Source of the DNA: Bartonella krasnovii
GTDB taxonomy: Bacteria > Pseudomonadota > Alphaproteobacteria > Rhizobiales > Rhizobiaceae
DNA: 64,000 nucleotides
Direction: 5' to 3'
Assembly: GCF_003606345.3 (NCBI RefSeq)
Contig: NZ_CP031844.2
Coordinates: 1,523,501 to 1,587,500, forward strand
Of this stretch, positions 8,676 through 58,213 are shown one piece after another. The position numbers and the translations under genes were made by a program. Below the pieces are notes generated by a model that worked only from the letters and a program-made list of their open reading frames with translations, was not told the DNA's origin and made no database searches. Numbering within the stretch: the first letter of the stretch is position 1; the number at the start of each line of letters is the position of its first letter.

Positions 8676-9422
8676 ATGAAGATAATTGTCGCTGTCAAAC
8701 GTGTTGTTGATTATAACATCAAGATACGCGTCAAACCCGATAATACAGGCGTTGATCTGTCTCACGTGAAAATGTCTATGAATCCCTTTGACGAGATAGC
8801 CGTTGAGGAAGCAATTCGCCAAAAAGAATCTGGTAAAATTTCAGAAGTTGTTCTTGTTTCAATTGGACCAGAAGCAGCCCAAGAAACTTTACGAACAGGG
8901 CTTGCCATGGGGGCTGATCGGGCACTTCTTGTCACAACAGATGAGACACTTGAACCTTTAAGCATCGCTAAGGTTCTCAAAGCCATTGTTAATGAAGAAA
9001 AACCCGATATGGTCTTTTTAGGAAAACAAGCAATTGATGATGATAGCAACCAAACTGGACAAATGCTCGCCGCTCTTCTTGGTTGGGGACAGGCAACCTT
9101 TGCCTCACATCTTAACATAGAAAATGGGCATGCTACCGTTACACGTGAGGTTGATAATGGAACACAAACCCTTTGCCTTCCCCTTCCCATAGTTATGACG
9201 ACCGATCTACGGCTCAATGAACCGCGTTACACCTCTCTCCCCAATATCATGAAAGCAAAAAAGAAAAACATTGAACAAAAAGCTCTTGCTGATCTTGGCA
9301 TCGACACGAAAGCACGGCTCACAATTTTAAGTGTTGAAGAGCCCAAACCTCGTCAATCTGGAATTAAAGTTGCTAATGTAACAGAACTTGTCAACGCACT
9401 AAAACAAAAAAACTGCATTTAA
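8676..9422 (+). CDS. etfB: Electron transfer flavoprotein, beta subunit
   Basis: A 248-residue protein with the classic ETF beta start [12 protein letters not shown] and the AMP-binding fold seen in the family. ETF is a soluble FAD/AMP heterodimer that takes electrons from acyl-CoA and related dehydrogenases and passes them to ETF:quinone oxidoreductase. The segment [12 protein letters not shown] and the C-terminal PRQSGIKV, which contacts the alpha subunit, are present. I chose the ATG at 8676, which follows the purine-rich AAGAGGATC, over a longer frame beginning at 8619, because the family starts exactly there. The alpha subunit follows 45 bp downstream and etfQO after that, so the complete electron path is encoded together. 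Confidence 0.96.
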
Positions 9423-27758: not shown

Positions 27759-28977
27759 ATGAACAGACCACGCACCCTTGCTCTCACCTATGGCTCTTAT
27801 AATGCCGTACGCATGCTCATTGGTGTCTACCATACGATTTTTTTTAATGTCGATGGGGGTGAGTCTCGCACAATTAGCACTACTTCAAGTTGTCTTTTCC
27901 ACAACTATTCTCCTGCTTGATTTTCCTTGTTCTGTTTTAACGGACAGATATCGACGTAAATATTCCGTGATAGCTGGTGTCTTTATGACAGGAGTATTTT
28001 ATCTTCTCTGCCTTCAAGCTCCTCATATGACAGCGCTTATTATTGCGCAAATTCTCTATGCAGCAGGCATTTGCATCATTGTCAGCGCCATTGACGGATG
28101 GATTTACCATTCTCTTGGTGATAAACACGATCACTTTTCGCATTATGCGCACCTTTATCACCAAGTGAATTCTTTCGGGAGTATTTTCAGTGGAATTGTA
28201 GGCATTGGAACGATTTATTACTCTGGACAATATTTTATGGGATATATTATCTCATGCCTCATGATGGGGATTATTTTTTGGGTCTTCCTTATTATTCCTG
28301 AAGAAAAGAAATCAACGATTGAAACACACAAAACAAAAACAATCTTGCACAATGCCAAGGAAACGCTCTGGATCTTTCAAAACACCGTGGGTGGAGCATG
28401 GTTTATTTTCCTCATGTGTCTTTTTAGCGCTGGAATTCAGATTATTTATCATTTTTGGCAACCAATTATCCTTGTAGGAGAAAAAATTGATCACCTCAAT
28501 GGCTCGCAAATGTTGGTCCTTATGTGCTGTCATATTGGAGCCTTTTCAGCACAGTATTTTTCAAATTTACTGATGTCGAAATATCATGTCCTTGATAAAA
28601 AATATAAGAATTCTATCAAATATTTTTCCTTCTTTTCTTCTCTGATGTGCACCGCACTTTATTTTTTCGTTCATAACAATCAAACAGTTGCATCCGTCAT
28701 TGCCTTCTCTTTAATCCATGGATTTATTTGCACTGTCCCGATAGGAGCAAAAAGCTTATTTTTCTCAGAGCTAAGTCAAACACAAACGCAGCATATTTCT
28801 GGTGTTGTTGGTGCTGTATCTTTTAGCGGCAGACTATTTTCAATTACCGTATTAAGTATTATTTCTTTTCTTCCTGCAAAAGTTTCTCCCTCTTATTATC
28901 TCATCTTACCGACCCTTACTTTTTTCACGTGTGGTTTGGTCATCATGAGATGGATAAAACATTCTCAAAAGTCTTGA
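27759..28977 (+). pseudogene. mccC-like MFS exporter with an N-terminal frameshift
   Basis: Major facilitator superfamily permease of about 400 residues and 12 membrane segments, with the motif A variant LDFPCSVLTDRYRRK near residue 50. In microcin C loci the gene after mccB is the exporter MccC, and this position is exact: ATG at 27759 directly follows the mccB stop. That start reads MNRPRTLALTYGSYNAVRM into the first helix, then changes frame at a run of eight T (27838-27845); one T fewer restores MSMGVSLAQLALLQ. The remainder, to 28977, is open. A shortened product from a later start is possible, but it would lack the first helix. Phase variation at the T run is a weaker alternative. Confidence 0.75.
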
Positions 28978-40436: not shown

Positions 40437-40501
40437 CTAAATTCTGGTAATTTTTATTTAAATTATCATGTATTTATAATTATAATATGAGGGAGGAATA
40501 T

Positions 40502-40651
40502 ATGAATATTTCACTTAATGAAGTAGAAGATGTTATTGAATTGTCTGCTGATGAAGTTGTGCCAACTGTGACAAATGATAAGTATGCACAGCGTAACGAT
40601 GTTCAGGTTTATCAAGATGAGCTTGATATGAATGGTTCGCTGGAAGTTTAA
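40502..40651 (+). CDS. 49-residue acidic peptide, candidate RiPP precursor
   Basis: ATG at 40502 follows the near-perfect ribosome site GAGGGAGGAA. The 49-codon product begins MNISLNEVEDVIELSADEVV and ends DELDMNGSLEV; it is strongly acidic, has no Cys, Ser/Thr are few and a single Arg lies at position 31. It is the first gene of a same-strand series: JmjC-type oxygenase, exporter, winged-helix-type protein and methyltransferase. A short leader-like peptide ahead of modifying enzymes and an exporter is the layout of ribosomally made, modified peptides. The acidic N-terminal half could be the recognition leader. This is an inference; a regulatory small protein is the main alternative. Confidence 0.6.
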   Translation: MNISLNEVEDVIELSADEVVPTVTNDKYAQRNDVQVYQDELDMNGSLEV

Positions 40652-40715
40652 TAATATATTGTTGATAAAGATCTCTTTATACATCTAACTTTAAAAGTTA
40701 AGCATATTTAAAAAC

Positions 40716-41906
40716 ATGTTTGAATTATTTTCAGAGGGTTTTGCTCAAAAAGTTTGGGCAAAACAAGCAGCTGAATTGTCAATTTCACACATCCCTTTCA
40801 TGGAAAGGGATGTATTAGATGCTCTAAGGCAATACGCTCTGCATCCTCATAAACTCTTAGCTCTTAATCCTAAATCCGAAGTCGTAACGGTGGTTAATGG
40901 AGTGCGGAGTCCACAACCTCTTCCAAACCTTCTTGTTTTAGATACGGATAAAACGATAGAAGAATATACTGCCCGCGTTGACCAATATGCCGAAGGACAA
41001 GAATGGTCGGTCATGTATTATGGGTTATATGCTGCAACCCCGTTGCTGTGGGACGCCGCAAAACAATTTGCAGATCAATTAGCACATTCTTTGGGGTATA
41101 GACCTGGTGGACGCGTGGATATTGACTGCTTTATTGGCCGGTATTCTTCTACCCATGTTGGAATCCATGTGGATCACGCTCATAATTTTGGTTTTACTCT
41201 ACAGGATGGTAAAACGATGTTTGCATGGCCCAGCACACGAAGAGACCTTCAAGGGCTAAAATATCCTGAATATAAGGAACATAAATCAACAGCAACTGCG
41301 CTGCAAAATCGAACAGATCGTGTTGCCTATTTCCCTCATGATGCTTTCCATGTTGCCGAAACGAGAGAAAAGGTTGCTGTAAATATCAATATCGCTTTTT
41401 GGGAAACAGCGCACGATGCACAACACCATAAAAATTATGTCACGCATTTACTCCGTCTTAATGATCGAACGCGCCATGATATCCGCACATCAGGAAGAGC
41501 AAGTTTAAACCCTGATAATGCTTTTCAACACTCTGCGCTAAGCTCTGCCATCGCAAAGGGTACCTTAAAACGCCATATGCTGGTTTCTCAATTAATAAGC
41601 GATACAAGTTCACGTTTATGTGTTGGTCGCCCTCTTATTGAGGTCTCTGAAATTGAAAATGAAATCACTCTTCGCGCATCCGCAACCCTCCAATGGGTGC
41701 CCTTAAGGGAAACAAATGAACTCCTCATCGCTGCCAACGGGCATTGCACAAATTTTGAGTATAGCTCTCATCTAGAGCACTTCCTTTCTCAACTTTCATC
41801 AGGAAAAAAATTAGATCTAGCAAAATTAAATGATAAATCCTATAAATATGCACAGAATGAAATTTTAAAAGCTGTAAAAGCTTTAGCACGTTGGGGAGCA
41901 TTGTGA
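40716..41906 (+). CDS. JmjC/cupin-type 2-oxoglutarate oxygenase-like protein with winged-helix-like C terminus
   Basis: A 396-residue protein. The central part has the iron-binding facial triad of JmjC-type oxygenases: HVD at residues 151-153 (after THVGI) and a distal His in DAFHVAET at 212, with a beta-strand pattern around each (FGFTLQDGKTMFAWP, VAVNINIAFW). Such enzymes hydroxylate side chains in proteins or peptides using Fe(II) and 2-oxoglutarate. Residues about 280-396 (GRPLIEV to the C-terminal ALARWGAL) look like a PqqD- or winged-helix-type domain, which could bind a leader peptide. It follows the 49-residue peptide gene by 64 bp and overlaps the exporter gene. Fold assignment is by motif only. 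Confidence 0.65.
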   Translation: MFELFSEGFAQKVWAKQAAELSISHIPFMERDVLDALRQYALHPHKLLALNPKSEVVTVVNGVRSPQPLPNLLVLDTDKTIEEYTARVDQYAEGQEWSVMYYGLYAATPLLWDAAKQFADQLAHSLGYRPGGRVDIDCFIGRYSSTHVGIHVDHAHNFGFTLQDGKTMFAWPSTRRDLQGLKYPEYKEHKSTATALQNRTDRVAYFPHDAFHVAETREKVAVNINIAFWETAHDAQHHKNYVTHLLRLNDRTRHDIRTSGRASLNPDNAFQHSALSSAIAKGTLKRHMLVSQLISDTSSRLCVGRPLIEVSEIENEITLRASATLQWVPLRETNELLIAANGHCTNFEYSSHLEHFLSQLSSGKKLDLAKLNDKSYKYAQNEILKAVKALARWGAL

Positions 41907-43099
41907 CAAAGAAAAAGTCCATGATGTTCGCCCAAATGGGACTTTTCCTCGTTTTGGGCTTAAGCAGTTTTGCTGATGAAACAGTTCAAGTCACTCTTAT
42001 TCTACACTTAGCAAAAAATACATCCTCCATTTCAATGCTTCTGTTAGCGGGATTTATCGGAGCAATTTGCGCAGGACCTATTGCCCCGCATCTTTTGCAT
42101 CATTTCAAACCTGCACGAACAGTACCCATTATTTTATTATTTCAAGCAATATTCGTAGCTATAGCTGCAATGACTAATCAATTTTGGTCTTATATTACTA
42201 TTGCTTTTGCACTAGGTTGTACTAGTTCACTCTTTTGGTCCTCAATCCTTGTTACTGTACCTGACTTTGCAAACAATGATCACCAATTAGACCGCATTAA
42301 TCGCATCATCCAAACGGTTCGTAATCTTGGTTATATTGTCGGACCACTGTTAGGGGGTGTATTATATGGTCTATCAAACGGGCAAAAAGGGCTCTTTGCA
42401 CTCTCAATCATGGTTCTCTGTGCAGCCTTGATCACCACATGCTGTTTTAAAAGTTTAAAAATGCATGTACCAACAACAAACATGACACAGCACAGCAAAA
42501 AGAAGCTAGATTTAACGGGACTCTTGCGTAAAAAAAAGGTTGTCTATGCTCTTGCTCCTCTTATTATCACCATTATCCTCACTTCTACTCTAAGCGTATT
42601 GCTGATTGTTCGTATGCGCACTGAACTAAACTTAAGTGGAGAAATCTATGGAGTAATTGCAAGCATGTCGAGCCTCGGACTCGTGGTTGGTCCACTCTGC
42701 TTCTCCAGCCTTTTCCACCGCTTTGGCAATGCCGCTGGAGCATCATTGGCTGCCGCAACCATTGGCTTTGGAATTTTTTGTTTATCCTTAACACAGCTCA
42801 TATGGTTGATGATGTTGTCATCTTTCATCCGTGGGAGTGCCAACGGCGTGCAAAATGCTCTGATGGCAAGTTTTATGATGAAAGCTATTCGGAAAGAACA
42901 ACGAAACAATCAGATGCCCGCCTATATCTTCATCATACAAACAGCCGTATGTATTGGTTTTATTAGTGCAGGTTTTGTAAAAGTGCACCACACCCAATAC
43001 ACACTCCTTATCATCAGTATCGCTACCATGATCACAGGCATCTTAGGCTTTATCGTAAACCGCGCTCTACAAAAAAAGGAAGGGGATCATGCTGAATAG
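41903..43099 (+). CDS. MFS exporter of the JmjC cassette
   Basis: A 398-residue permease with 12 likely membrane segments (for example LFLVLGLSSFADE, LLLAGFIGAICAGPIAPHLL and LGYIVGPLLGGVLYG, which is the MFS motif C region). The GTG at 41903 overlaps the upstream stop (GTGA) and has GGGGAGC 5 bases upstream, so I prefer it to a TTG at 41891. The overlap means translation is coupled to the oxygenase. Likely role is export of the product made by the cassette. Confidence 0.82.
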   Translation: MTKKKSMMFAQMGLFLVLGLSSFADETVQVTLILHLAKNTSSISMLLLAGFIGAICAGPIAPHLLHHFKPARTVPIILLFQAIFVAIAAMTNQFWSYITIAFALGCTSSLFWSSILVTVPDFANNDHQLDRINRIIQTVRNLGYIVGPLLGGVLYGLSNGQKGLFALSIMVLCAALITTCCFKSLKMHVPTTNMTQHSKKKLDLTGLLRKKKVVYALAPLIITIILTSTLSVLLIVRMRTELNLSGEIYGVIASMSSLGLVVGPLCFSSLFHRFGNAAGASLAAATIGFGIFCLSLTQLIWLMMLSSFIRGSANGVQNALMASFMMKAIRKEQRNNQMPAYIFIIQTAVCIGFISAGFVKVHHTQYTLLIISIATMITGILGFIVNRALQKKEGDHAE

Positions 43100-43331
43100 A
43101 CTTTGCCATCTTTTCTCTCACACAAACCATGCACAAAAACAATATGACAATCACCAGCCCATCAAATTCCGCTCACATTCTAATAAAATCATTGTATCTC
43201 CCCTGCCCATAGCAACCAATAGGACTTTGATAAACCACTCTGTGTGGAGCAGTAAACAACCATTCCCGCAGCAATATGGGAACTTTAAAGTAAAACAAAA
43301 ATCGGTTACATCATGCAACAAGATCCTATAG
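43089..43331 (+). CDS. Coupled 80-residue protein, unknown
   Basis: ATG at 43089 overlaps the exporter stop by 11 bp and has AAGGAAGGGG immediately upstream; the frame then overlaps the next gene by 19 bp. The product is rich in His, Asn, Gln, Ser and Lys, with no hydrophobic helix and no family I know. The overlaps at both ends, as in its neighbours, argue that it is translated. It may be a second peptide substrate or a small accessory protein, or the remnant of a longer gene. Confidence 0.45.
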   Translation: MLNRLCHLFSHTNHAQKQYDNHQPIKFRSHSNKIIVSPLPIATNRTLINHSVWSSKQPFPQQYGNFKVKQKSVTSCNKIL

Positions 43332-43987
43332 GCTTAAATTTTTACCATGGAACAGGCGGTTATGTATGGCAATTAGCAGACACCATACAACATGACTTGA
43401 ATGAAAACATCCACACCCTTGCCTTACAAAAACCCACACCACCTCTCGCAATCAATTCTTTTTCCGTTTACCCATATAAATTACCCCCCTCAGCACACGT
43501 TCAATGGGCAAAGGACGTACAAATCATAAAAAATAAACCGGCTCTCATTGGCAAACGTCAAATACAACCTATCACCGCTGTTTCCACCAAAAGCAGAGCT
43601 TTTGGTGGATTTGATTTACTAACATTTGCAGCACTTTATGATGGCTGTTCTGTTCAATCCTTGAAAGAAATCAAACTCAACGGTTGCCTTTTTGACGCAG
43701 AAAATCTTTTGATATCCTTGTTGCGACACGGTCTCATTCAAACAGACCAACAGGACTTTTCGCCGGATCATGCAACAGCTCTTGTACGAGAACCAACATG
43801 TCGTCTTGTCCATTCTCCTCTTGGGTCCCTTGCCATTAATCAGCTCAACGGGCGCACAATCCGTCTAAATGAAAAAACCAAACCTCTCTTGCAAAAAGCT
43901 ACAACAGAGATACATCTTCAACACCCCATAGAACAAACAATAACATTTTTTGTCAAAGCAGGAATGTTGCGCTTGGTAAAAGAATAA
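43313..43987 (+). CDS. Winged-helix/RRE-like protein of the peptide cassette
   Basis: A 224-residue protein without catalytic motifs. The second half shows two similar modules: about residues 95-145 (FGGFDLLTFAALYDGCSVQSL to LISLLRHGLIQ) and about 160-224 (CRLVHSPLGSLAINQLNGRTI to FFVKAGMLRLV). Each has the strand-helix-helix-strand pattern and the closing hydrophobic hairpin of PqqD-type winged-helix domains, which serve as peptide recognition elements (RRE) in RiPP pathways. I infer a substrate-binding scaffold role. DNA binding is the alternative reading of a winged helix. It overlaps the preceding ORF and ends 10 bp before the methyltransferase gene. Confidence 0.5.
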   Translation: MQQDPIGLNFYHGTGGYVWQLADTIQHDLNENIHTLALQKPTPPLAINSFSVYPYKLPPSAHVQWAKDVQIIKNKPALIGKRQIQPITAVSTKSRAFGGFDLLTFAALYDGCSVQSLKEIKLNGCLFDAENLLISLLRHGLIQTDQQDFSPDHATALVREPTCRLVHSPLGSLAINQLNGRTIRLNEKTKPLLQKATTEIHLQHPIEQTITFFVKAGMLRLVKE

Positions 43988-43997
43988 GGATCAAAAG

Positions 43998-45239
43998 ATG
44001 CCCCTCATAAGACCTGGTATGGGAACAGAAAACAGTATTAATCTTCTTCACACGCTCATTCAAATGGCAAGGCCACGTACCGTCATTGAGATCGGTGCGG
44101 GGGATAGCACATGCATGATTGCTAAAGCACTGCAAAAAGCAAAACAAGCATGGCAACAGGATAAAAAACTTTTAGAATCCTCCACGTGGGAAGAACGTAC
44201 GGCTTTTCTTGACCCTTCAGGTGTCCTTGAGAATTATCAACCACGATTGATCACCATTGATGATTTTTCAGTAGAAGGTCAATCCGCTGAAGAAGCATGG
44301 CAAAAACTGCTCCAAGACGAGGACATCGAAAAAGACATGGTAACATTCATCCATGAGAATTTCTTCTCTCTTGATGATGCAACGCTCAAGTCTTGGGGAC
44401 CCGTAGATTTTGCTTGGCTTGATGCTGGAACGCCCGCAGATGATGTGCGATTTGTTACCACCCTTTGGGAACATATCACCGCTGGGGGTTATCTCTGTTT
44501 GCATGAACCAACCATAACCACACCCGTTGCTCTTGATGGAGCACAACGGGTGCGACGTGTGAGAACTCCTTTGTGGGAAGAAATTCTCTACCGTCTTGAT
44601 GGATCCTATGAAGCCTTAACCCTCCCCGAAAACCATAAATATCGCCAAAGTGGTCTAGGGATTATTCGCAAACGCACCCCTACCGAACAAATTGTACGCG
44701 CACAATCGCTCCAAGCAGAACTTATAGAAATCAATGAACCGCCCCTTCGCAATGATCTTTTGCCCATGGGACAAGAAACCCTTCACAAACGGAGTAAAGC
44801 CAATTCATTGATCTCTGCCATGACCTCACCGACATTGCGCGCTGTTTACGCTGCCATTATCCTTGGTGCGAAAAATCTTTCTGATATCCTCAAAACTGTC
44901 GATTGTGATGCCAAAACCATTCATAAATCTATCAACCGTCTTTTAAATCTTGGTCTTATTCAAAATACAACAGAAGGATTTCAAGCCGAAGGAACGCTTT
45001 GGCAAGCACTAGAAGATAAAAATGAGCGAGAAAGGGAAAATTTAAACGACCGCCATTTAGAAACAGAAGAAATGCTTACAAAAATTGTAGAAACCTTTCA
45101 AAGAGAAAAAATCTATAGCGAAAAGGAAGTCTCCAAGATATGCAATCTCTTTACGGTAGATTTTGCCAGATTACGACGCACCCTCATTGAGAGAGGATTT
45201 TTACAACGCCATGGGGGCAAATATCAACGCATACGCTAA
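43998..45239 (+). CDS. Class I SAM-dependent methyltransferase with winged-helix C terminus
   Basis: A 413-residue protein. The N-terminal 230 residues form a Rossmann methyltransferase: motif I VIEIGAGDST near residue 29-38, an acidic strand end near LITIDDFS, and FAWLDAGTPADD near residue 138, similar to the class I O-methyltransferase-like (Methyltransf_24) layout. About residues 270-330 hold a winged helix (LRAVYAAIILGAKNLSDI to LLNLGLIQ) and a second helical domain follows to the C terminus. The ribosome site AAGGA precedes the ATG. It is the last gene of the JmjC cassette and could methylate the product or a peptide carboxylate. Confidence 0.7.
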   Translation: MPLIRPGMGTENSINLLHTLIQMARPRTVIEIGAGDSTCMIAKALQKAKQAWQQDKKLLESSTWEERTAFLDPSGVLENYQPRLITIDDFSVEGQSAEEAWQKLLQDEDIEKDMVTFIHENFFSLDDATLKSWGPVDFAWLDAGTPADDVRFVTTLWEHITAGGYLCLHEPTITTPVALDGAQRVRRVRTPLWEEILYRLDGSYEALTLPENHKYRQSGLGIIRKRTPTEQIVRAQSLQAELIEINEPPLRNDLLPMGQETLHKRSKANSLISAMTSPTLRAVYAAIILGAKNLSDILKTVDCDAKTIHKSINRLLNLGLIQNTTEGFQAEGTLWQALEDKNERERENLNDRHLETEEMLTKIVETFQREKIYSEKEVSKICNLFTVDFARLRRTLIERGFLQRHGGKYQRIR

Positions 45240-45410: not shown

Positions 45411-46666
45411 ATGCAATGGGGAAAAACAAAAATACGGGATGTCAATTGGTTATCCAATAGGATTAAGAACAGTCAAAGCCATCAGGAGAGAATATGGGAT
45501 CAAGGTCTCAATGACCTGACAATTGTTGCACGAACATCAGGGCGCAGTATTGTTGCTCAATCTGGGGAAGCTTATATTGATTTTATGTCATGTTCGTATC
45601 TAGGACTAGAACGTCATCCAGCATTAAGTGATGCCGTAAAATCTTCTGTAGAGAGATTTGGTGTGCAATATGCAGCTGCACGAACGCGTGCGAAATGTAT
45701 ATTATTTGATGAACTTGAGTTAAAGCTAAACACCATTTTTCTCGATTCCCACTCTGTTATATTTAATTCCGTAGGTGCAACCCATCTTACAGTTATGCCC
45801 ATCTTAGGTTCAGGAGAACTTCCAGGATATCCTATAACAGCAAATGGTATGTATGGATTATAGATAAAGAAACGCATGCATCGGTGCAAATTTTACGTGG
45901 TATACTTGAACAATTTGGAAGTTATATAAGAATCCCATTTAAAGATATTACAGCACTAGAGAAAAGCCTACAGGAAAGTAAATTACAAAATAGAACGCCT
46001 GTTTTGGTATCTGACTCTCTCGGTTCTATGGGAGGAGCAAATGACATTAAAAAATTAACAGAATTAGCGAAACTGTACAACGGATACTATTACGCAGATG
46101 ATGCACACGGTACCTCAATTATCGGAAAAAATGGCTGTGGTTATACACTGCATTTATTAGAAGAATACAAAAAAAATCTTATTTTAATTTCTTCCTTGTC
46201 AAAAGCATTTGGTTCCCATGGTGGTTCAGCATCATTTAGCAACAAAGAAGCTGCATCTTTTATTAAAAAATATGCGCTTAACTATATTTTTAGTGGTCCA
46301 CCTTTTCTCCCAGGAATAGCAGCTTGCCTTGCTTCTGGAGATATTCATCTTTCACAAGAAATGAACCAACTTCAATGTAAACTGCACGAAAATATCTCTT
46401 ATTTTGATCAAAGAGTCTCCAACATTGAGGTACAGGAAAAGTTGAGTCCCATTAGATCTATCTTTATGGGTGCTGAAGACAAAGCGATAAGTGCCTCATA
46501 TAATTTAAGAAAGCGCGGTTTTTTGGTTACAGCGGCAATGTATCCAACAGTGGCTAAAAAGAAAAGCATCATTCGCGTGGCGATATCAGCAGCACATACT
46601 AAACATGATCTCGAAACATTTGCAACAAATATGAATGAATTGACAGAGCTCTCCTCCACTTACTGA
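45411..46666 (+). pseudogene. PLP-dependent alpha-oxoamine synthase family enzyme, frameshifted
   Basis: Aminotransferase class I/II protein of the alpha-oxoamine synthase group (relatives of BioF, ALA synthase, serine palmitoyltransferase and CqsA), which condense an acyl donor with an amino acid. Order of motifs: YIDFMSCSYLGLERHP, SVGATHLTVMPIL, then after the break DKETHAS, SDSLGSMGG, YYADDAHG (PLP-binding Asp) and SSLSKAFGSHGG (Schiff-base Lys). The frame changes near 45845: 45411-45863 ends in a stop, while the continuation reads VWIIDKETHAS and runs open to 46666. One indel separates the halves. It is either a fresh pseudogene or a sequencing error. It heads the second cassette. Confidence 0.82.
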
Positions 46667-46757
46667 GATCATAACAGCTTATAAAAATGCGCCCGCAATA
46701 TTACAATTAAAGCCTATGGCTTTGAAACCAACACATAGAAAAGATTTCTTCTAAATC

Positions 46758-46916
46758 ATGCAAACGCAACTAAAACCACAAGATCGTTTTAATCAGCTCA
46801 TGGCTAAAATAATAAAGAAACGCACTCAACACCAATATCAATCGTTAGCGGCTTTATACATTCTCAAAGTCGATGAAATAATTAAAATATTTTCTCTTTA
46901 TCAAATATCGTCATGA
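46758..46916 (+). CDS. Possible 52-residue basic peptide before the ATP-grasp gene
   Basis: A 52-codon frame, ATG 46758 to TGA 46914-46916, ending 13 bp before the ATP-grasp gene. The product starts MQTQLKPQDRFNQLM, is basic and Gln-rich, and has no recognised family. There is no strong ribosome site. It could be a small substrate or accessory protein; a chance frame is about as likely. Confidence 0.3.
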   Translation: MQTQLKPQDRFNQLMAKIIKKRTQHQYQSLAALYILKVDEIIKIFSLYQISS

Positions 46917-46929
46917 AAAGGATTTAGCA

Positions 46930-47895
46930 ATGGAACTTTATTGGATTGTTGCGCAAGAAGAATATGCCAACGCACAAGATATAGAATATTCCTATTCAGA
47001 ATACACAGAAGAGTTTAATAAAAGAGGCATCAAATTCCAGTTTTTAAAATTAGAAGACTGCCTTATCAAAGCAAATCATGCAGATGAATTTATTTTTCTA
47101 TATCAAGGTATTCCACTAAATCCAGATCACTCTGCATATATTTTATCCAAAGCAGATCTAAACCCACAAGCAAGAGCCATCAGTCTCACATTAAGAAATT
47201 ATTTTAGGATAAGTGGTACACACCTTCTTAACGAATGCATTTATGGCATAGAAAATCTTGAGTGGGATAAGATTGCGCAAATGGCATTAGCACGTAAGCT
47301 AGGAGCTCCAGTGCTTCCATTCACGATGTGTGGCTATCATAAACAAACAGTTCCTACAATCACATCTTTTGTTTCATCAGAATATGAATCTTTTATTTTC
47401 AAACCCGTTGGCTCAGGAATGGGATTTGGTGTCATTAAATCAGATGGATTACAACATGCAATGAGTATAGGAAATCTGATCTCAACTTCTTCTTCTGAAT
47501 ATTTTTTAATGCCTTTTGTAAAGGATGCACAAGATGTAAGATTTTTCTTTATATCAGGAAAACTCTGTTTTGTGAAATTCCGCACACCTCAAGGAGACGG
47601 TTATATTGGAAATGTTGCACGCGGGGGCAAAAATACAATTCTTACTGAAGAAACTTTTATAAGCGCATATGGCAAGGAAAAATTCTATCCTGAAATGCTC
47701 GATATTTCTAAAAACATCGTCGAAAAAACAAAAAACAATCTTCTTGCAGTGGACTGGCTGGTGAATCAAGAAGGATACTATTTCAACGAAATGTGCACAG
47801 CAGAAACAGGGCTAACAAAACTTCCTCAAGAGATACAACAAAATGTATTTGATCATTTAACGACACTTCTATGGAAATTCCATGGACAAAAATAA
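46930..47895 (+). CDS. ATP-grasp ligase
   Basis: A 321-residue protein with the ATP-grasp plan of RimK-type ligases: a pre-ATP domain (residues 1-105), a lysine strand FIFKPVGSGMGFGV near residues 154-167, the strand FLMPFVKDAQDVRFFFISGKL near 195, RGGKNT near 234 and the metal-binding strand AVDWLVNQEGYYFNEM near 275-290. ATP-grasp enzymes form amide or ester bonds through an acyl phosphate. The gene overlaps the following MFS gene by 14 bp, so synthesis and export are coupled. Substrate is unknown; in context it may join an amino acid to the product of the oxoamine synthase. Confidence 0.8.
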   Translation: MELYWIVAQEEYANAQDIEYSYSEYTEEFNKRGIKFQFLKLEDCLIKANHADEFIFLYQGIPLNPDHSAYILSKADLNPQARAISLTLRNYFRISGTHLLNECIYGIENLEWDKIAQMALARKLGAPVLPFTMCGYHKQTVPTITSFVSSEYESFIFKPVGSGMGFGVIKSDGLQHAMSIGNLISTSSSEYFLMPFVKDAQDVRFFFISGKLCFVKFRTPQGDGYIGNVARGGKNTILTEETFISAYGKEKFYPEMLDISKNIVEKTKNNLLAVDWLVNQEGYYFNEMCTAETGLTKLPQEIQQNVFDHLTTLLWKFHGQK

Positions 47896-49060
47896 AATTA
47901 CTTTTTTCATCTATAGCGCAGTTTTTCTTTCTGAATTTTCCTTTTTCTTTGTACTTCCTCTCCTTGGAAACTCTTCTCTCATAACTGCTGCCAATGTTGC
48001 GTTTTATCTCGCTGGATCGGTAATCCTTGAAAGCATTCTCATGATAACCACAACGGGTTTATTAGAAAGATTTTCGCGTAAACTCTTAATGGCTACCGCC
48101 TTTATTTTAAGGAGTACCGCTTTCCTGTGCGTTATACTATCGCTCAAACCTTCTGCATGGTTGATCTTTTTTACCTTAACGGCTTTTTCGAAAGCAATTT
48201 CAAAGCCATTTTTGAGAGAAATTTTATCAGAACATCTCAAGGGAAGTGCTCTTAAGCGCGCTTTAACCCTCTATTCGTTTTTTCAAAACGCTGCTGTCGT
48301 TATCGCCCCACTTGTTGCAACGATTGCCATAAAATATAACGCATCAGCTTTTCTCATGGCTTTTTTTGCACTTATTGGTTTGTATTTTTGTGTTCTATCT
48401 CTCAAAATTGTTTATCACTACCCCCATAAAAAATCATCCGTTGAAAAGGATAAAAAAACAAAAAAAACTCTTCTTTTTTCTTTAAAAACAATAATACATA
48501 ATCGTTCTATTGCTTATTTGTTGGTTGCGGCTTTGCTCTGTGCGTTCCTCATGGGAATTTTCATCACCACCACGACGCTTCTCAGTAAATTTGACAGCAA
48601 TCTGGCCCCTTATAGTGGGGTTTTCTTTTCAATTGTTGGCATCAGCATTTGTATCTGGCAGGGGGTGATCAATAAACATCTCACCCTTTCCGATAAATCA
48701 ACTTTTTATCTGCTCTGCTTTATGGGAGGTTTCTCCTCATTTTTCCTCATGGGTGGTGTCTTTACCGCTGTGACTGCGTTAATTGCCTACAGTGTCTATG
48801 AATCTGTCATGATTCCAGAGATATACTATCAATCAGGGAAAACAATCGCATCCGTTTCTTCCAGTGTTCTTTTTAGTTATATTCTTGTTGTTTCAAATAT
48901 TGGCCAAGCTATAGGCTCATGGACAAGTGGATGGATCATCAGCCATTTCAACAATCATATCGCTTTGCTTTTTGCCATGATTGTTGGTGTCTCGGCCTTT
49001 GCCTCTTGCCTTTGCCTCATGCAAACTAAAAAAAATAAGGAACTTCAATGTTGCATATAA
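47882..49060 (+). CDS. MFS transporter of the ATP-grasp cassette
   Basis: A 392-residue permease with 12 predicted membrane segments, including an N-terminal helix (ITFFIYSAVFLSEFSFFFVLPLLG) and a motif-A-like loop ERFSRKLLMA near residue 62. It overlaps the ATP-grasp gene upstream (14 bp) and the adenylating-enzyme gene downstream (13 bp). This tight packing suggests a single function, probably export of the cassette's product. No close family is recognised. Confidence 0.8.
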   Translation: MDKNKITFFIYSAVFLSEFSFFFVLPLLGNSSLITAANVAFYLAGSVILESILMITTTGLLERFSRKLLMATAFILRSTAFLCVILSLKPSAWLIFFTLTAFSKAISKPFLREILSEHLKGSALKRALTLYSFFQNAAVVIAPLVATIAIKYNASAFLMAFFALIGLYFCVLSLKIVYHYPHKKSSVEKDKKTKKTLLFSLKTIIHNRSIAYLLVAALLCAFLMGIFITTTTLLSKFDSNLAPYSGVFFSIVGISICIWQGVINKHLTLSDKSTFYLLCFMGGFSSFFLMGGVFTAVTALIAYSVYESVMIPEIYYQSGKTIASVSSSVLFSYILVVSNIGQAIGSWTSGWIISHFNNHIALLFAMIVGVSAFASCLCLMQTKKNKELQCCI

Positions 49061-50115
49061 TTTTTGCAACCGGTGGCACAACAAGAGTGCCTAGAACACT
49101 TCGCCACAAATGGCTCAATTATGAGTTTGTAACACACTCTGCGGCAAAGAAGCTCGAAACTGTTTTTAAAAACTGCTCCGTAAGCTCCGTTGCCAATTGC
49201 CTCACAGCTGGAGGATTGTGGGGTGGTTTTTTATTTGCACATGAAATTTGTCGCCTTCTCAAAGTAACATATTATCCATTTGCCTCTATGGTTGATCCTG
49301 AAACTCTGAGTTCAGCTATCGAAGAATTCTCTATCGATACCATCATATGCCTGCCAAGTTTTGCGGATAAACTTATTACGATATCTCGGAAGCAAAAATT
49401 AAAATGTCTAAAAAACCTATTCTATCTTGGAGAAATCTTTCAACCTGAATCTGTATTGAAAATAAAAGACATAATCCCTGAATTGCATATTAAGCCTCTT
49501 AGCTTTACCACCCAAGAAACTGGTCCTATAGGGTTTCAGTGTTCCGAGATTAATGGTGACATTTATCATCTTGTACGACACATTCAAGTAAAGTCAAATC
49601 CTGAAAATGATGAATTAATTGTCTCTGTTTTTTATCCTGAAGACGCACCATACCTTGAACACGCTACAGGTGATGTTGTTCATATTGCATATGATCAATC
49701 ATGCGATTGTGGCTATCATGGCCATACCTTACACCTGAAAGGAAGAACACCAACTTTTTATAATATTATGGGAACTTCAATTTCTGTACACGATTTTACA
49801 AATGTCTTAAATCTTCAAGGTTGCACTCTTTTGGCTACAGATATTCAACTCATTATAGTCAATCAATGTGAGAATGGTGTTGGCATTTTATTGTTTATTG
49901 ATTCACGTTACAATATTGAAAGAAATGCCCTTTTATCATCCCTTTCATCCTCTTATCTGATAAAAGACATTATCAATAAATCACAATTTTTCCATGTTTG
50001 CTTTATGCGGAAATCTCAATTTATTCGCTCCTCAAGCTCTGAAAAAATAAAATCCTTTTTTCAAACGACTGAATATCCTATAGTGTTTGATGGTAACTTC
50101 GTGAAAATTAAATAA
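49048..50115 (+). CDS. PaaK-like AMP-dependent ligase (adenylating enzyme), short form
   Basis: A 355-residue protein of the ANL/PaaK group. The phosphate-binding motif appears at the very N terminus as FATGGTTRVPRTL (residues 5-17; family form TSGTTGxPK). Further on come FYLGEIFQP, FTTQETGPIG near residue 153 (the A5-like motif) and a Cys pair in SCDCGYHGHTLHLKGRTP (near residue 225-240), as in PaaK-type ligases. Full PaaK enzymes have about 90 residues before the first motif; these are missing, so it may use a reduced N-terminal domain. The likely role is to activate a carboxylate as an acyl-AMP. It overlaps the MFS stop by 13 bp. Confidence 0.7.
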   Translation: MLHIIFATGGTTRVPRTLRHKWLNYEFVTHSAAKKLETVFKNCSVSSVANCLTAGGLWGGFLFAHEICRLLKVTYYPFASMVDPETLSSAIEEFSIDTIICLPSFADKLITISRKQKLKCLKNLFYLGEIFQPESVLKIKDIIPELHIKPLSFTTQETGPIGFQCSEINGDIYHLVRHIQVKSNPENDELIVSVFYPEDAPYLEHATGDVVHIAYDQSCDCGYHGHTLHLKGRTPTFYNIMGTSISVHDFTNVLNLQGCTLLATDIQLIIVNQCENGVGILLFIDSRYNIERNALLSSLSSSYLIKDIINKSQFFHVCFMRKSQFIRSSSSEKIKSFFQTTEYPIVFDGNFVKIK

Positions 50116-52020: not shown

Positions 52021-53901
52021 GTGAGCAATATGGAAAAGCTAGACGGCAAAAGCATGGATATCGTGGAACAAAATATTAAACAGTTTAAACAACTGTTTCC
52101 TGAAGTATTTTCAGAAGGAAAAATTAAATTCGACCAGCTACAAGAGCTTTTAGGAAATTATATCATTAAAGATGAAGACCATTATAATTTCACATGGCAT
52201 GGTAAACGTGCAGCAAGTCGTCTTGCTCAAACACCAAGTACAGGAACACTACGCCCTTGTAAACAAGAAAGTATAGATTGGGACACTACACAAAATCTCT
52301 TCATTGAAGGTGATAATCTTGAAGTTTTGAAACTTTTGCAAAAATCATATCACCGCCAAGTCAAAATGATTTATATCGACCCTCCCTATAATACGGGTAA
52401 TGATTTTGTTTATAAAGACGACTTCAAAGACGGCGTACAAAACTATCTTGAAATGACAGGACAATTGGATAATGAAGGCAAAAAAATAGGAACGAATTCC
52501 AACAGTGCAGGACGTTATCATACCAACTGGCTCAATATGATGTACCCACGCCTCAAACTTGCGCGCAACCTGCTTCGTGATGATGGGGTTATTTTTATCT
52601 CTATTGATGATAAAGAACAAGTTAATCTCAAAAAACTTTGCGATGAAGTTTTTGGTGAAGAAAACTTTATAGAATCGTTCGTGTGGCATAAAAAAACCCC
52701 TCCTAATAATGTGATAGTTGGCTCTGTACATGAATATATTTGTATGTACGCAAAAAACAAAGAGTGTTCTGAGTTGTTTTTATTGCCGCGAGATATAGAA
52801 AAAGATCAAGATTACAAAAATCCTGATAATGATCCAAGAGGACGTTGGAAACCAGATAATTTAACTGCAGCCGCTAAAGGTGGTCGTTCTACAAAAAGTC
52901 TACTGTATACAATCACCAACCCCATAACAAAGCAAAAACACAAACCTCCCAAAGGAAGAATGTGGGCAGTTCCATACAATATCATGCAACAAAAAATAAA
53001 CAATGGGACTGTTTATTGGGGAAAAAATAATAGGGGGCGCCCTATGGATAAGCGTTTTTTAAAAGAAACACGCAATGGGCGAGTCGCATCGACTTTATTA
53101 AATGATGTAGGCACAAATAGTTCAGCATCGAAATATCTAAATAAACTGTTTTCTGGACTAGTTTTATTTGAAACTCCAAAACCAGTTAATCTTTTACAAA
53201 GATTGCTGCAAATATCAACCACCCAAAATGATCTCATCCTTGACTTTTTTGCAGGGTCTGGCACCACAGCACATGCGGTGATGCAGTTAAATGCCGAAGA
53301 TGGTGGAAAGCGACGTTGCATTTTAGTGCAACTCCCCGAACCCACAGAAAAAAAATCCGAAGCTTTCAAAGCTGGCTATAAAAATATTGCGGAAATATCC
53401 AAAGAACGCCTTCGCCGTGCTGGGAAAAAAATCAAAGAAGAGCAAAGTGAAAAACTGAATTTAAATGCCAATGGTGACCTTGATACAGGCTTTAAGGTTT
53501 TCAAGCTTGATAGTTCAAACATCAAGCACTGGGAAGCAGATTTCGACACGCTTGGAACAGACCTCATTAATGCCGTAGACTATCTCAAACAGGACCGTTC
53601 CAATGAAGACCTACTTTATGAAATTCTTCTCAAATATGGGCTTGATCTAACTGTTTCCATAGAAATACGTCTCATTGCCCAAAAAAATATCTACATTATT
53701 GGACATGGTGCTTTGATTATCTGTTTAGATACAGATATCGATATGGATGTCATCAAGGGCATTGGCACCCTTAAAGAAGAGCTAAAGCCGGATATTATGC
53801 GCGTTGTGTTCAAAGATGACAGTTTTAAGGATGATGTTATTAAAACCAATGCTCTCATGTGCCTAAAACGCTATGGCATTTCTGATGTTAAAAGCTTATA
53901 G
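52021..53901 (+). CDS. Type III DNA methyltransferase (Mod), copy 1
   Basis: A 626-residue beta-class adenine-type N6 methyltransferase. Motif IV DPPYNTGNDF lies at residues 120-129 and motif I-type DFFAGSGTTAHAVMQ near 410. This order, with the recognition domain between, is the beta class used by type III Mod proteins. Residues 1 to about 215 and from about 405 are shared with copies 2 and 3; residues about 219-400 (ESFVWHKKTPPNN to LLQRLLQIS) are unrelated and should set DNA specificity. Start GTG at 52021 or the ATG at 52030; no strong ribosome site. A shortened res remnant follows, so this copy has no Res of its own. Confidence 0.92.
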   Translation: MSNMEKLDGKSMDIVEQNIKQFKQLFPEVFSEGKIKFDQLQELLGNYIIKDEDHYNFTWHGKRAASRLAQTPSTGTLRPCKQESIDWDTTQNLFIEGDNLEVLKLLQKSYHRQVKMIYIDPPYNTGNDFVYKDDFKDGVQNYLEMTGQLDNEGKKIGTNSNSAGRYHTNWLNMMYPRLKLARNLLRDDGVIFISIDDKEQVNLKKLCDEVFGEENFIESFVWHKKTPPNNVIVGSVHEYICMYAKNKECSELFLLPRDIEKDQDYKNPDNDPRGRWKPDNLTAAAKGGRSTKSLLYTITNPITKQKHKPPKGRMWAVPYNIMQQKINNGTVYWGKNNRGRPMDKRFLKETRNGRVASTLLNDVGTNSSASKYLNKLFSGLVLFETPKPVNLLQRLLQISTTQNDLILDFFAGSGTTAHAVMQLNAEDGGKRRCILVQLPEPTEKKSEAFKAGYKNIAEISKERLRRAGKKIKEEQSEKLNLNANGDLDTGFKVFKLDSSNIKHWEADFDTLGTDLINAVDYLKQDRSNEDLLYEILLKYGLDLTVSIEIRLIAQKNIYIIGHGALIICLDTDIDMDVIKGIGTLKEELKPDIMRVVFKDDSFKDDVIKTNALMCLKRYGISDVKSL

Positions 53902-54155
53902 AGAAGATAGCTATGATAACCGCTTATGTTTTTCATATGAAAAAATATTAGAAAATGTTCAAAATATCCAATTCCGTAACGGTTTAAAGAAAATAAAAGA
54001 ACTAAAAAACTCGACTTTATTGTTAAAATAGAAAACCGTTAGTTATATGCAGAAATAATGCATTTTAACAAATATAAAAGAAAATCATTTTATAAAACAA
54101 AGTGCAAAAAACCACAAAATACCCGACACAAGCTTAAAAGACAATAAAAAAACAC
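53902..54155 (+). pseudogene. Remnant of a res 5' end plus duplicated mod leader
   Basis: About 53915-54035 matches the first part of res with a large internal deletion (GGTAACCGCTTATGTCTTTC-like block, then GAAATATTAGAAAA and AAATATCCA blocks). It then joins the same junction seen after the longer fragment at 56302 (GAAAACC-TTAGTTAT). From 54058 on it repeats the leader of copy 1. It codes for nothing intact. Confidence 0.7.
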
Positions 54156-55997
54156 GTGAGCAATATGGAAAAGCTAGACGGCAAAAGCATGGATATCGTG
54201 GAACAAAATATTAAACAGTTTAAACAACTGTTTCCTGAAGTATTTTCAGAAGGAAAAATTAAATTCGACCAGCTACAAGAGCTTTTAGGAAATTATATCA
54301 TTAAAGATGAAGAGCATTATAATTTCACATGGCATGGAAAACGTGCAGCAAGTCGTCTTGCTCAAACACCAAGTACAGGAACACTACGCCCTTGTAAACA
54401 AGAAAGTATAGATTGGGACACTACACAAAATCTCTTCATTGAAGGTGATAATCTTGAAGTTTTGAAACTTTTGCAAAAATCATATCACCGCCAAGTCAAA
54501 ATGATTTATATCGACCCTCCCTATAATACGGGTAATGATTTTGTTTATAAAGACGACTTCAAAGACGGCGTACAAAACTATCTTGAAATGACAGGACAAT
54601 TGGATAATGAAGGCAAAAAAATAGGAACGAATTCCAACAGTGCAGGACGTTATCATACCAACTGGCTCAATATGATGTACCCACGCCTCAAACTTGCGCG
54701 CAACCTGCTTCATGATGATGGGGTTATTTTTATCTCTATTGATGATAATGAACAGGATAATCTTAAAAAACTTTGTAATGAGATTTTTGGAGAAGAAAAT
54801 TTCATTGCGCAGTTTGCCTGGAGAAAAACAGACAACCAAGCCAACATTGGAAATATTGCGCGGGTTAAAGAATACATTATTCTTTATGCTAAAGACTCAA
54901 AGATCTTAAAATTAAATAAAATGCGCTTAACAGAAAGAGCAAAAAAAGAATATCGATACAAAGATAACCATGGAACTTACAGACGATCTATTTTGCTAGA
55001 TAAAACCAGAGGACGACATTTTTATAAGATAAAAACACCTTCTGGAGCTGCTTTAGAAGGGCCTTGGATGATAAACGAAAAAGATTTTCAAGACCTCTGT
55101 TCCAAAAACGCCATATATTGGGCAACAGGAAAAACTGAACTTCCCTATGGGAAAATTTATCTCCATGAAAACCAAGGACAAATAGCTAACGACTTTCTTT
55201 CTATAGAATTTGGCACCAATCAAGAAGCAGGAATGGCATTAGAAAGCCTGTTTAATGCCCGCTACTTTGATTTTCCTAAACCGCTTTCATTAATAAAACA
55301 TTTTCTAACCATTGCAACCAATGATGACCTAATTCTTGACTTTTTTGCAGGGTCTGGCACCACAGCACATGCGGTGATGCAGTTGAATGCCGAAGATGGT
55401 GGCAAGCGGCGTTGCATTTCTGTGCAACTCCCCGAACCCACAGAAAAAAAATCCGAAGCTTTCAAAGCTGGCTATAAAAATATTGCGGAAATATCCAAAG
55501 AACGCCTTCGCCGTGCTGGGAAAAAAATCAAAGAAGAGCAAAGTAAAAAACTGAATTTAAATGCCAATGGTGACCTTGATACAGGCTTTAAGGTTTTCAA
55601 GCTTGATAGTTCAAACATCAAGCGCTGGGAAGCAGACTTTGATACACTTGATATGAATCTTCTCAATGCTGTTGATCATCTCAAACAAGACCGTTCTAAC
55701 GAAGACCTTCTTTATGAGATCCTTCTCAAATATGGCCTTGACCTAGCTGTCCCCATTGAAACACGTACAACTGCAGGAAAAAATATCTACATCATTGGAC
55801 GTGGCGCTTTGATAGTCTGTTTAGACGAAGATATTGATATGGATCTTGTCCAGGGTATTACCTCTCTTAAAGAGGAGCTACCATCTGAAGTCATACGCGT
55901 TGTTTTCAAAGACAGCAGTTTTAGGGATGATAATGTGAAAACAAATGCTCTCATGAATCTAAAACGCTATGGCTTCACTGATATTAAAAGCTTATAG
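54156..55997 (+). CDS. Type III DNA methyltransferase (Mod), copy 2
   Basis: A 613-residue Mod paralog. N-terminal 215 residues are nearly identical to copies 1 and 3, with DPPYNTGNDF at 120-129. The recognition region differs (AQFAWRKTDNQANIGN to LIKHFLTIA, about residues 219-395), then DFFAGSGTTAHAVMQ resumes the shared part. The C-terminal half, from about the KSEAFKAGYKN segment on, is the same as in copy 3 and differs more from copy 1. It is followed after 11 bp by a truncated res. Expected activity is sequence-specific adenine methylation in complex with a Res from the locus. Confidence 0.92.
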   Translation: MSNMEKLDGKSMDIVEQNIKQFKQLFPEVFSEGKIKFDQLQELLGNYIIKDEEHYNFTWHGKRAASRLAQTPSTGTLRPCKQESIDWDTTQNLFIEGDNLEVLKLLQKSYHRQVKMIYIDPPYNTGNDFVYKDDFKDGVQNYLEMTGQLDNEGKKIGTNSNSAGRYHTNWLNMMYPRLKLARNLLHDDGVIFISIDDNEQDNLKKLCNEIFGEENFIAQFAWRKTDNQANIGNIARVKEYIILYAKDSKILKLNKMRLTERAKKEYRYKDNHGTYRRSILLDKTRGRHFYKIKTPSGAALEGPWMINEKDFQDLCSKNAIYWATGKTELPYGKIYLHENQGQIANDFLSIEFGTNQEAGMALESLFNARYFDFPKPLSLIKHFLTIATNDDLILDFFAGSGTTAHAVMQLNAEDGGKRRCISVQLPEPTEKKSEAFKAGYKNIAEISKERLRRAGKKIKEEQSKKLNLNANGDLDTGFKVFKLDSSNIKRWEADFDTLDMNLLNAVDHLKQDRSNEDLLYEILLKYGLDLAVPIETRTTAGKNIYIIGRGALIVCLDEDIDMDLVQGITSLKEELPSEVIRVVFKDSSFRDDNVKTNALMNLKRYGFTDIKSL

Positions 55998-56008
55998 AAA
56001 AGAGAACG

Positions 56009-56302
56009 ATGAAAATTAAATTTGATGCTAACCAACACCATCAACGCCGTGCATGGGAGTCTGCTGTCGGAATTTTTAAAGGCCAAGAACTTGATAAAAC
56101 CTTGTTCTCTATGCCTTCTTTAACAAAACATGAGTTTGAAGCTTACTTAACAGGAAAAGGCGAAAGAGGCTATGGTAACCGCTTATGTCTTTCACCAGAA
56201 GAAATATTAGAAAACGTTCAAAATATCCAGCTCCGAAATGGGTTAAAACAAACTAAAGAACTAAAGAGCCTCGACTTTACTATTGAAATGGAAAACCATT
56301 AA
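56009..56302 (+). pseudogene. Truncated res (first 94 codons)
   Basis: A 97-codon frame whose first 94 residues equal the start of the full Res at 58225. It ends EMENH where the intact protein continues EMETGTGKT, so the copy stops exactly before the Walker A motif. The short fragment cannot hydrolyse ATP or cut DNA. It marks the boundary of the duplicated mod unit. Confidence 0.85.
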
Positions 56303-56338
56303 TTATGCACAGAAATAATTCAGTTTAATAAAAAGCCC

Positions 56339-58213
56339 GTGAGCATTATGGAAAAACTAAACAGCACAAGCATGGATATCGTGGAACAAAATATTAAACA
56401 GTTTAAACAACTGTTTCCTGAAGTATTTTCAGAAGGAAAAATTAAATTCGACCAGCTACAAGAGCTTTTAGGAAATTATATCATTAAAGATGAAGAGCAT
56501 TATAATTTCACATGGCATGGAAAACGTGCAGCAAGTCGTCTTGCTCAAACACCAAGTACAGGAACACTACGCCCTTGTAAACAAGAAAGTATAGATTGGG
56601 ACACTACACAAAATCTCTTCATTGAAGGTGATAATCTTGAAGTTTTGAAACTTTTGCAAAAATCATATCACCGCCAAGTCAAAATGATTTATATCGACCC
56701 TCCCTATAATACGGGTAATGATTTTGTTTATAAAGACGACTTCAAAGACGGCGTACAAAACTATCTTGAAATGACAGGACAATTGGATAATGAAGGCAAA
56801 AAAATAGGAACGAATTCCAACAGTGCAGGACGTTATCATACCAACTGGCTCAATATGATGTACCCACGCCTCAAACTTGCGCGCAACCTGCTTCGTGATG
56901 ATGGGGTTATTTTTATCTCTATTGATGATAATGAAGTAGCCAACCTCAAAAAACTTTGCGATGAGATTTTTGGAGAAGAAAATTTCATTGCACAATTAAT
57001 TTGGCGTCGCCGAGCACCATCAGGAATGTCAGAAAATAATGTTTCCATAGATCATGAATATGTACTTTGCTACCAGCGTAACGAAACTTTTGAATTTATG
57101 GGAAATGAAAAAAATTTTAATAAATATCAAAATTCTGACAACGACCCAAGAGGGCCATGGATTACAGGCGATTTAACCGTTGGAATGAATGCCTCAATGC
57201 GTCCTAATCAAGCCTATGATCTTATTGATCCTAAAACTGGAAATATCTTTCCCTATAATCCCAATAGGGTCTGGGCTTATGTTCCTGAGAGCATGGAAAG
57301 GCTAATAAAAGAAGGAAAAGTTTTATTTCCTACAGATACAAGTAAACGACCAATGCTTAAACGATTTCAAAATGAACTTAAAAGCAATTATAATCCTTTC
57401 TCTAGTATTATGACGGACATAGTTGGATTAAACACCGAAGCAACCCGGATGATACAAAAAATACTTCATGGAAACATATTTGATTACTCCAAACCAATGT
57501 CTCTTTTAATGACATTGTTAAAACAGATTATATCCAAAAATGATCTTATTCTTGACTTTTTTGCAGGCTCTGGCACCACAGCACATGCAGTCATGCAGTT
57601 AAATGCCGAAGATGGTGGCAAGCGGCGTTGCATTTCTGTGCAATTACCCGAACCAACCGATACAAAATCAGAAGCTTTCAAAGCTGGCTATAAAAATATT
57701 GCGGAAATATCCAAAGAACGCCTTCGCCGTGCTGGGAAAAAAATCAAAGAAGAGCAAAGTAAAAAACTGAATTTAAATGCCAATGGTGACCTTGATACAG
57801 GCTTTAAGGTTTTCAAGCTTGATAGTTCAAACATCAAGCGCTGGGAAGCAGACTTTGATACACTTGATATGAATCTTCTCAATGCTGTTGATCATCTCAA
57901 ACAAGACCGTTCTAACGAAGACCTTCTTTATGAGATCCTTCTCAAATATGGCCTTGACCTAGCTGTCCCCATTGAAACACGTACAACTGCAGGAAAAAAT
58001 ATCTACATCATTGGACGTGGCGCTTTGATAGTCTGTTTAGACGAAGATATTGATATGGATCTTGTCCAGGGTATTACCTCTCTTAAAGAGGAGCTACCAT
58101 CTGAAGTCATACGCGTTGTTTTCAAAGACAGCAGTTTTAGGGATGATAATGTGAAAACAAATGCTCTCATGAATCTAAAACGCTATGGCTTCACTGATAT
58201 TAAAAGCTTATAG
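56339..58213 (+). CDS. Type III DNA methyltransferase (Mod), copy 3
   Basis: A 624-residue Mod paralog directly upstream of the intact res. It shares the N-terminal third (DPPYNTGNDF) and the C-terminal part with the other copies, but has a third, unrelated recognition region (AQLIWRRRAPSGMSENN to LLMTLLKQII, about residues 219-408). The leader that precedes copies 1 and 2 is largely absent here, and the gene follows the truncated res by 36 bp, so it is probably transcribed from upstream together with copy 2. With the adjacent Res it should form the working type III enzyme. Confidence 0.93.
   Translation: MSIMEKLNSTSMDIVEQNIKQFKQLFPEVFSEGKIKFDQLQELLGNYIIKDEEHYNFTWHGKRAASRLAQTPSTGTLRPCKQESIDWDTTQNLFIEGDNLEVLKLLQKSYHRQVKMIYIDPPYNTGNDFVYKDDFKDGVQNYLEMTGQLDNEGKKIGTNSNSAGRYHTNWLNMMYPRLKLARNLLRDDGVIFISIDDNEVANLKKLCDEIFGEENFIAQLIWRRRAPSGMSENNVSIDHEYVLCYQRNETFEFMGNEKNFNKYQNSDNDPRGPWITGDLTVGMNASMRPNQAYDLIDPKTGNIFPYNPNRVWAYVPESMERLIKEGKVLFPTDTSKRPMLKRFQNELKSNYNPFSSIMTDIVGLNTEATRMIQKILHGNIFDYSKPMSLLMTLLKQIISKNDLILDFFAGSGTTAHAVMQLNAEDGGKRRCISVQLPEPTDTKSEAFKAGYKNIAEISKERLRRAGKKIKEEQSKKLNLNANGDLDTGFKVFKLDSSNIKRWEADFDTLDMNLLNAVDHLKQDRSNEDLLYEILLKYGLDLAVPIETRTTAGKNIYIIGRGALIVCLDEDIDMDLVQGITSLKEELPSEVIRVVFKDSSFRDDNVKTNALMNLKRYGFTDIKSL

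Follow-up and report, generated by a model that had tools for sequence, protein, structure and literature searches.

Among the closest described precedents for the locus analysed here is the pathway to biphenomycin, a ribosomally synthesized and post-translationally modified peptide (RiPP). BipG of this pathway was shown to be a JmjC ornithine gamma-hydroxylase (PMC12707348), and PMC12257519 records that the bpm cluster also contains a RiPP recognition element (RRE) protein. Bacterial JmjC homologs of RRE-bearing JmjC proteins are noted in RiPP-like contexts in PMC12710340. Little work exists so far on the JmjC enzymes of RiPP pathways. Here we describe a gene cluster on the forward strand of a 64,000-nucleotide stretch of Bartonella krasnovii (contig NZ_CP031844.2, positions 1,523,501 to 1,587,500; hereafter the window), in which a 49-codon peptide gene is followed by genes for a predicted JmjC-type oxygenase, an exporter, a 224-aa protein and a methyltransferase. 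The cluster is very probably the biosynthetic locus for an undescribed RiPP family. An earlier note on this DNA had proposed a RiPP-type system, and this interpretation is supported overall by a conserved peptide beside the same enzymes and by multi-core forms of that peptide elsewhere. A short precursor stands beside modifying enzymes, with a putative border between leader and core. RiPP families are usually discovered through known enzyme or RRE profiles; because neither the oxygenase nor the 224-aa protein matches a Pfam or NCBIfam model, mining based on those libraries would miss this cluster.

The KYAQ peptide and its relatives

The frame of the peptide gene runs from an ATG at 40502 to a stop at 40649-40651. 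Translation from an alternative in-frame ATG (40487) would yield a product of 54 aa; the GGGAGG ribosome site at 40491-40496 fits only the start at 40502, and the acidic 49-residue product with a strong ribosome site that had been predicted is indeed encoded. Conservation was followed through the oxygenase gene, which was matched in 27 of 71 Bartonella genomes (E <= 0.001), several times as fragments. We compared 21 loci, namely the window and 20 of the other 26; the six genomes left out (G006, G023, G053, G064, G065, G070) hold only short C-terminal fragments. A peptide homolog, open from its ATG through KYAQ, precedes the oxygenase gene in 18 of the 21, while the frame is broken in L023 and L039 and the peptide was not found in L040. 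Most Bartonella copies share the N-terminal stretch MNISL..V...EL, followed by a core of the form P-x5-KYAQ. The Bartonella peptide has a single core around P21 and K27-Y28-A29-Q30, and residues 1 to about 19 would form the leader. Even in the rearranged B. bacilliformis-type pair L036/L037, where the 224-aa and methyltransferase genes are divergent and the identity of the 396-aa oxygenase falls to 46%, a 53-codon gene upstream of the oxygenase gene starts MNILLDKVEE and contains VKYAQ. The codon statistics of the peptide are modest: the ratio of nonsynonymous to synonymous change (pN/pS) is 0.535 over 13 sequences, versus 0.69 and 0.92 in the shifted frames, and 0.49 in eight complete Bartonella loci, a weaker selection than that on the enzymes. 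The case for the peptide therefore rests on conservation and repeats.

The repeats are found outside Bartonella. A scan of 84,980 species genomes gave at least 22 loci (14 in Bartonella, six in Burkholderia, Paraburkholderia and Pandoraea, two in Streptomyces), a lower bound because one of two exact motifs was required. Nine outside loci were examined, eight from Burkholderiaceae and Streptomyces together with L071, and a KYAQ peptide occurs in seven of them (six of the first eight, plus L071); wherever the peptide was found, in Bartonella or outside, its gene is the immediate upstream neighbour of the oxygenase gene. The outside precursors consist of a leader, which in Burkholderiaceae resembles MTISL.....HELTA.E, and then a tandem array in which a 17-residue unit of the type VEPVVANVKYAQRNDVE occurs 2, 2, 2, 3, 3, 4 or 5 times. 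We tabulated 36 cores of 22 precursors, choosing them by K, Y, A and Q, which are constant for that reason; proline occupies position -6 relative to the lysine in every one. Several cores behind a single leader, with matching enzymes next to them, classically mark a precursor as that of a multi-core RiPP. Co-occurrence of peptide and enzymes in Bartonella, Burkholderiaceae and Streptomyces argues for a gene association beyond chance. Absence of the 49-codon gene from homologous clusters would have refuted the earlier note; the outcome was the opposite, with peptide and KYAQ motif alike conserved across Bartonella and multi-core forms present elsewhere.

The two remaining outside loci are L052 (B. 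territorii), which has complete enzymes and no peptide detected at the locus or in the genome, and L062, a Streptomyces relative with 34% JmjC identity and no KYAQ peptide. In L062 (Streptomyces UNOC14_S4), a distant JmjC gene, an MFS gene and two proteins without a Pfam name occupy 4338-6100 and 7642-8844. Its 38-codon frame at 4338-4454, only a lead, ends RKVAQYPLY, and the locus perhaps represents a sister RiPP type with another core.

The gene family is rare. Of 299 genomes sampled from the family to which the L051 genome belongs, six gave strong matches, five of which the species-genome scan had already revealed; of 293 sampled from the order of the L057 genome, one did so, that one being the L057 genome itself. 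The window genome was the sole strong match in samples of 397 genomes of its order and 398 of its phylum. Weak matches turned up in 2, 4, 0 and 2 further genomes of these four samples. The weak JmjC matches L072-L077, L090 and L091 were not counted as members. A methyltransferase tree groups the Bartonella rows (99/97), and the JmjC tree does not settle a single acquisition by Bartonella.

Predicted enzymes and the state of the cluster

All frames listed for the cluster by the earlier note were found on the forward strand (Table 1). Pfam and NCBIfam searches of the products named only the exporter and the methyltransferase, leaving the 396-aa, 224-aa and 80-codon products without a match. Judged by its predicted structure, the 396-aa protein is a JmjC-type oxygenase of ribosomal-oxygenase fold that ends in a winged helix of RRE order. 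H151-x-D153 and H212 are invariant in all 13 aligned rows, which bears out the proposed HxD...H iron site, and the model matches the ribosomal oxygenases NO66 and YcfD over its full length, so that a JmjC fold with HxD...H and a C-terminal winged helix is present in it. The tail, which is well predicted, places strands at 325-330, 335-340 and 343-348 and helices at 351-361, 368-372 and 380-392, a beta3-alpha3 order that we compared with the RRE definition given in PMC12710340; the winged-helix tail described in the earlier note is thus upheld. The JmjC identity itself stands by fold in the predicted model and not by sequence, as Pfam assigns no family, PF08007 included, to the window protein, none to those of L057 and L062, and no cupin family to that of L051.

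Structure matches of the modelled 224-aa protein comprise 39 rows: 13 RiPP or related enzymes, some of which we take to contain RREs, 18 ribosomal oxygenases, seven carbamoyltransferases and one putative regulator. Its domains match leader-binding RREs weakly in the predicted model, and the winged-helix repeats once proposed for it are supported, by weaker matches than those of the JmjC tail. Comparison of ten pairs of winged-helix domains with hhalign revealed no sequence kinship; the best value (E 0.026) linked two pieces of the methyltransferase tail, all others being at least 0.48. The methyltransferase is present as the earlier note had it and is conserved with the cluster. Its tail, with Pfam winged helix-turn-helix (wHTH) matches below cut-off plus DUF2087, resembles at the sequence level a type of regulator, which leaves the leader-binding role implied for it by the earlier note conjectural. 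BtmL, a modulator of bottromycin gene expression, is reported to have this pair of wHTH and DUF2087 (PMC7113386), the same arrangement in another RiPP cluster; in the window it is fused to a methyltransferase.

The coupled 80-codon frame of the earlier note is open in the sequence, and DNA comparison ruled it out as a gene, identifying it as a relic of a second methyltransferase. This class I methyltransferase (MT1, ~290-300 aa) lies between the exporter and the 224-aa gene. Full-length copies occur in B. doshiae (L030, 8328-9206), in Streptomyces DH37 and in those five Burkholderiaceae loci whose cluster is uncut; L054, cut by a contig end, is outside this count. Fifteen other Bartonella loci compared, the window included, retain only ~200 bases at this place. 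Local DNA comparison of the window's 213 bases with the beginning of the B. doshiae gene gave a score of 37 (z 15), against 300 approximate dinucleotide shuffles with mean 11.9, standard deviation 1.7 and largest score 19.5, and four other loci tested gave z 13.7 to 57. The translated frame, compared by blastp with two MT1 proteins, had no significant match (lowest E 0.35). An intact MT1 was seen in only one of the 21 Bartonella loci, that of B. doshiae (L038 is cut before this place), and the majority of Bartonella products would accordingly lack one of the modifications.

Ten of the 21 Bartonella loci have an intact copy of each of the five core genes: the window, L021, L022, L024, L027, L028, L029, L030, L036 and L037. 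The other 11 are without an intact copy of at least one core gene, although for two of these, L033 and L038, a contig end also truncates the locus. In eight of the complete loci, pN/pS values of 0.23 (JmjC), 0.29 (224-aa protein) and 0.21 (methyltransferase) indicate purifying selection. In every complete cluster examined, the exporter gene comes after the JmjC gene; in L027 (6203-8694) it is duplicated in tandem.

Table 1. Features of the candidate RiPP cluster and of the adjoining operon in the window (aa, amino acids; MFS, major facilitator superfamily; SAM, S-adenosylmethionine; 2OG, 2-oxoglutarate; PLP, pyridoxal phosphate).
Feature	Position	Strand	Remarks
Precursor peptide gene	40502..40651	+	49 codons, MNISLNEVEDVIELSADEVVPTVTNDKYAQRNDVQVYQDELDMNGSLEV; open frame and GGGAGG ribosome site; homologs precede JmjC gene elsewhere
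JmjC-type oxygenase, ribosomal-oxygenase-like, C-terminal beta3-alpha3 winged helix (predicted)	40716..41906	+	396 aa; Fe(II)/2OG cofactors inferred from fold
MFS exporter	41903..43099	+	GTG start overlaps JmjC stop; MFS_1 PF07690, E 1.2e-32
80-codon open frame, decayed MT1 relic, not a gene	43089..43331	+	DNA match to B. doshiae MT1
224-aa protein, two predicted RRE-like winged-helix domains (~56-146, ~150-224)	43313..43987	+	Putative leader-peptide-binding partner
SAM methyltransferase, 413 aa	43998..45239	+	Methyltransf_24, E 5.9e-9; DUF2087, E 7.8e-14; wHTH-like tail
Biosynthetic-looking operon	45411..50115		Split BioF-like PLP synthase (45411-45863, 45884-46666), RimK-like ATP-grasp enzyme, MFS, CoA-ligase-like protein

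Proposed pathway and competing explanations

From gene content, conservation, repeats and modelled folds we infer the following chemistry, each step of which is conditional. The leader would be held by the winged-helix tail of the JmjC protein and by the two-domain 224-aa protein while the oxygenase adds a hydroxyl group to one residue in the KYAQ core. With BipG, a JmjC hydroxylase of ornithine, as the analogy, our first choice of target is the lysine, at somewhat less than even odds; tyrosine, glutamine or the proline are possible. The methyltransferase might next methylate the core, perhaps on the new hydroxyl, with a second methylation in clusters that have MT1, and the product would then be trimmed by a protease encoded outside the cluster and exported by the MFS protein.

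The nearest folds of the JmjC protein are ribosomal oxygenases that act on ribosomal proteins, and L052 has the enzymes with no peptide detected. It could therefore be argued that this protein hydroxylates a ribosomal or other protein, as YcfD and NO66 do, which would leave the peptide gene as an upstream attenuator or a small gene with no connection to it. We regard this as highly improbable, because the peptide stays with the enzyme despite rearrangement and across phyla, its core is tandemly amplified, and the exporter and methyltransferases travel with the JmjC gene. An unlikely but less remote alternative assigns the winged-helix proteins to transcriptional regulation: the 224-aa protein and the tail of the methyltransferase would control the operon, and the JmjC protein alone would touch the peptide. 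The 224-aa model speaks against this, matching mostly RiPP or related enzymes and ribosomal oxygenases and a putative regulator in one of 39 rows; the methyltransferase tail leaves room for it. The search for operators was limited to the promoter scan, which gave 14 hits versus 13.3 in shuffles, and a terminator scan gave 5 versus 4.3, no excess in either case.

Decay must also be weighed, as a RiPP pathway by origin could be dead or dying in Bartonella, with the window cluster making little or nothing. Consistent with this are the 11 of 21 loci without at least one intact core gene (two of them also cut by contig ends), the survival of MT1 in one locus and the 44 of 71 genomes without a JmjC match at the threshold used. 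Against it, the window and nine further loci have kept all of the five remaining genes intact, and pN/pS is 0.21-0.29 for three enzymes in eight of these; we judge a dead or dying pathway quite improbable here. Beyond the preferred reading of the cluster as a RiPP locus, we consider it an even bet that it represents a RiPP class of its own, which horizontal transfer has carried between Bartonella, Burkholderiaceae and Streptomyces. In such a class, a JmjC enzyme derived from ribosomal oxygenases, with a built-in RRE, would hydroxylate a KYAQ core present in up to five repeats, one or two methyltransferases would cap it, and animal-associated Bartonella would export a small KYAQ-derived product. 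For experiments, the multi-core relatives supply clean substrates, and nature provides a graded set in the clusters that have or lack the second methyltransferase.

Neighbouring genes and comparison with known systems

Other parts of the window also contain biosynthetic-looking genes. The operon directly downstream of the cluster (Table 1) has parts broken to varying degree in several related Bartonella loci. At 26825-28977, a ThiF-like adenylating enzyme, presumably also MccB-like, is split into two frames (26825-27232, 27282-27758) and followed by an MFS gene; the 27282-27758 frame has weak matches, below cut-off, to TOMM leader-binding and SagC models, and the region looks like a second, degraded RiPP locus. 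Three closely similar genes in tandem with a variable middle part at 52021-58213, read by eye, we take to encode DNA methyltransferases, probably type III-like, with a presumably helicase-like gene after them, to 61188.

The earlier note knew of no characterised system of this make-up, and none was found in the open-licence papers searched, leaving room for a description elsewhere. These papers also yielded no KYAQ precursor among RiPPs and no earlier RiPP pathway in Bartonella. Among the text matches listed for KYAQ, none has a RiPP topic by title or opening of the abstract, and the literature joining Bartonella, RiPPs and biosynthetic gene clusters concerns Pseudoalteromonas and honeybee gut symbionts, each paper naming Bartonella once. 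A PDB sequence search gave no match, and no relative was found in plasmid and viral collections. PADLOC had no match for the JmjC and 224-aa proteins and weak matches for the methyltransferase alone.

The biphenomycin pathway (bip/bpm/pbs; BipG/BpmG) likewise combines RiPP genes with those for an MFS protein and a JmjC enzyme, the JmjC enzyme being likened to the window protein by description. It differs in its FRF core, whereas the window cluster has a KYAQ core and a methyltransferase, and the biphenomycin-type families (MNIO, B12 radical SAM, arginase, TldD) are absent among the window cluster genes by Pfam and NCBIfam. Assignment to the biphenomycin type was accordingly rejected, there being no MNIO, B12 radical SAM or arginase and the core being KYAQ rather than FRF. 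The ribosomal oxygenases NO66, MINA53 and YcfD share the predicted fold of the window JmjC protein over its full length, C-terminal winged helix included, at 10-13% identity (VIA rows). Unlike them, the window protein sits in a peptide and exporter cluster and is not recognised as PF08007. RREs (lasso B1, TbiB1, ThcOx, PbtF, TigE) are among the nearest, if weak, structure matches of the modelled 224-aa protein, and their beta3-alpha3 order recurs in the modelled JmjC tail. Should the reading as a new RiPP class prove true, it would suggest that the RRE and the ribosomal-oxygenase winged helix are functionally one and the same peptide-holding device.

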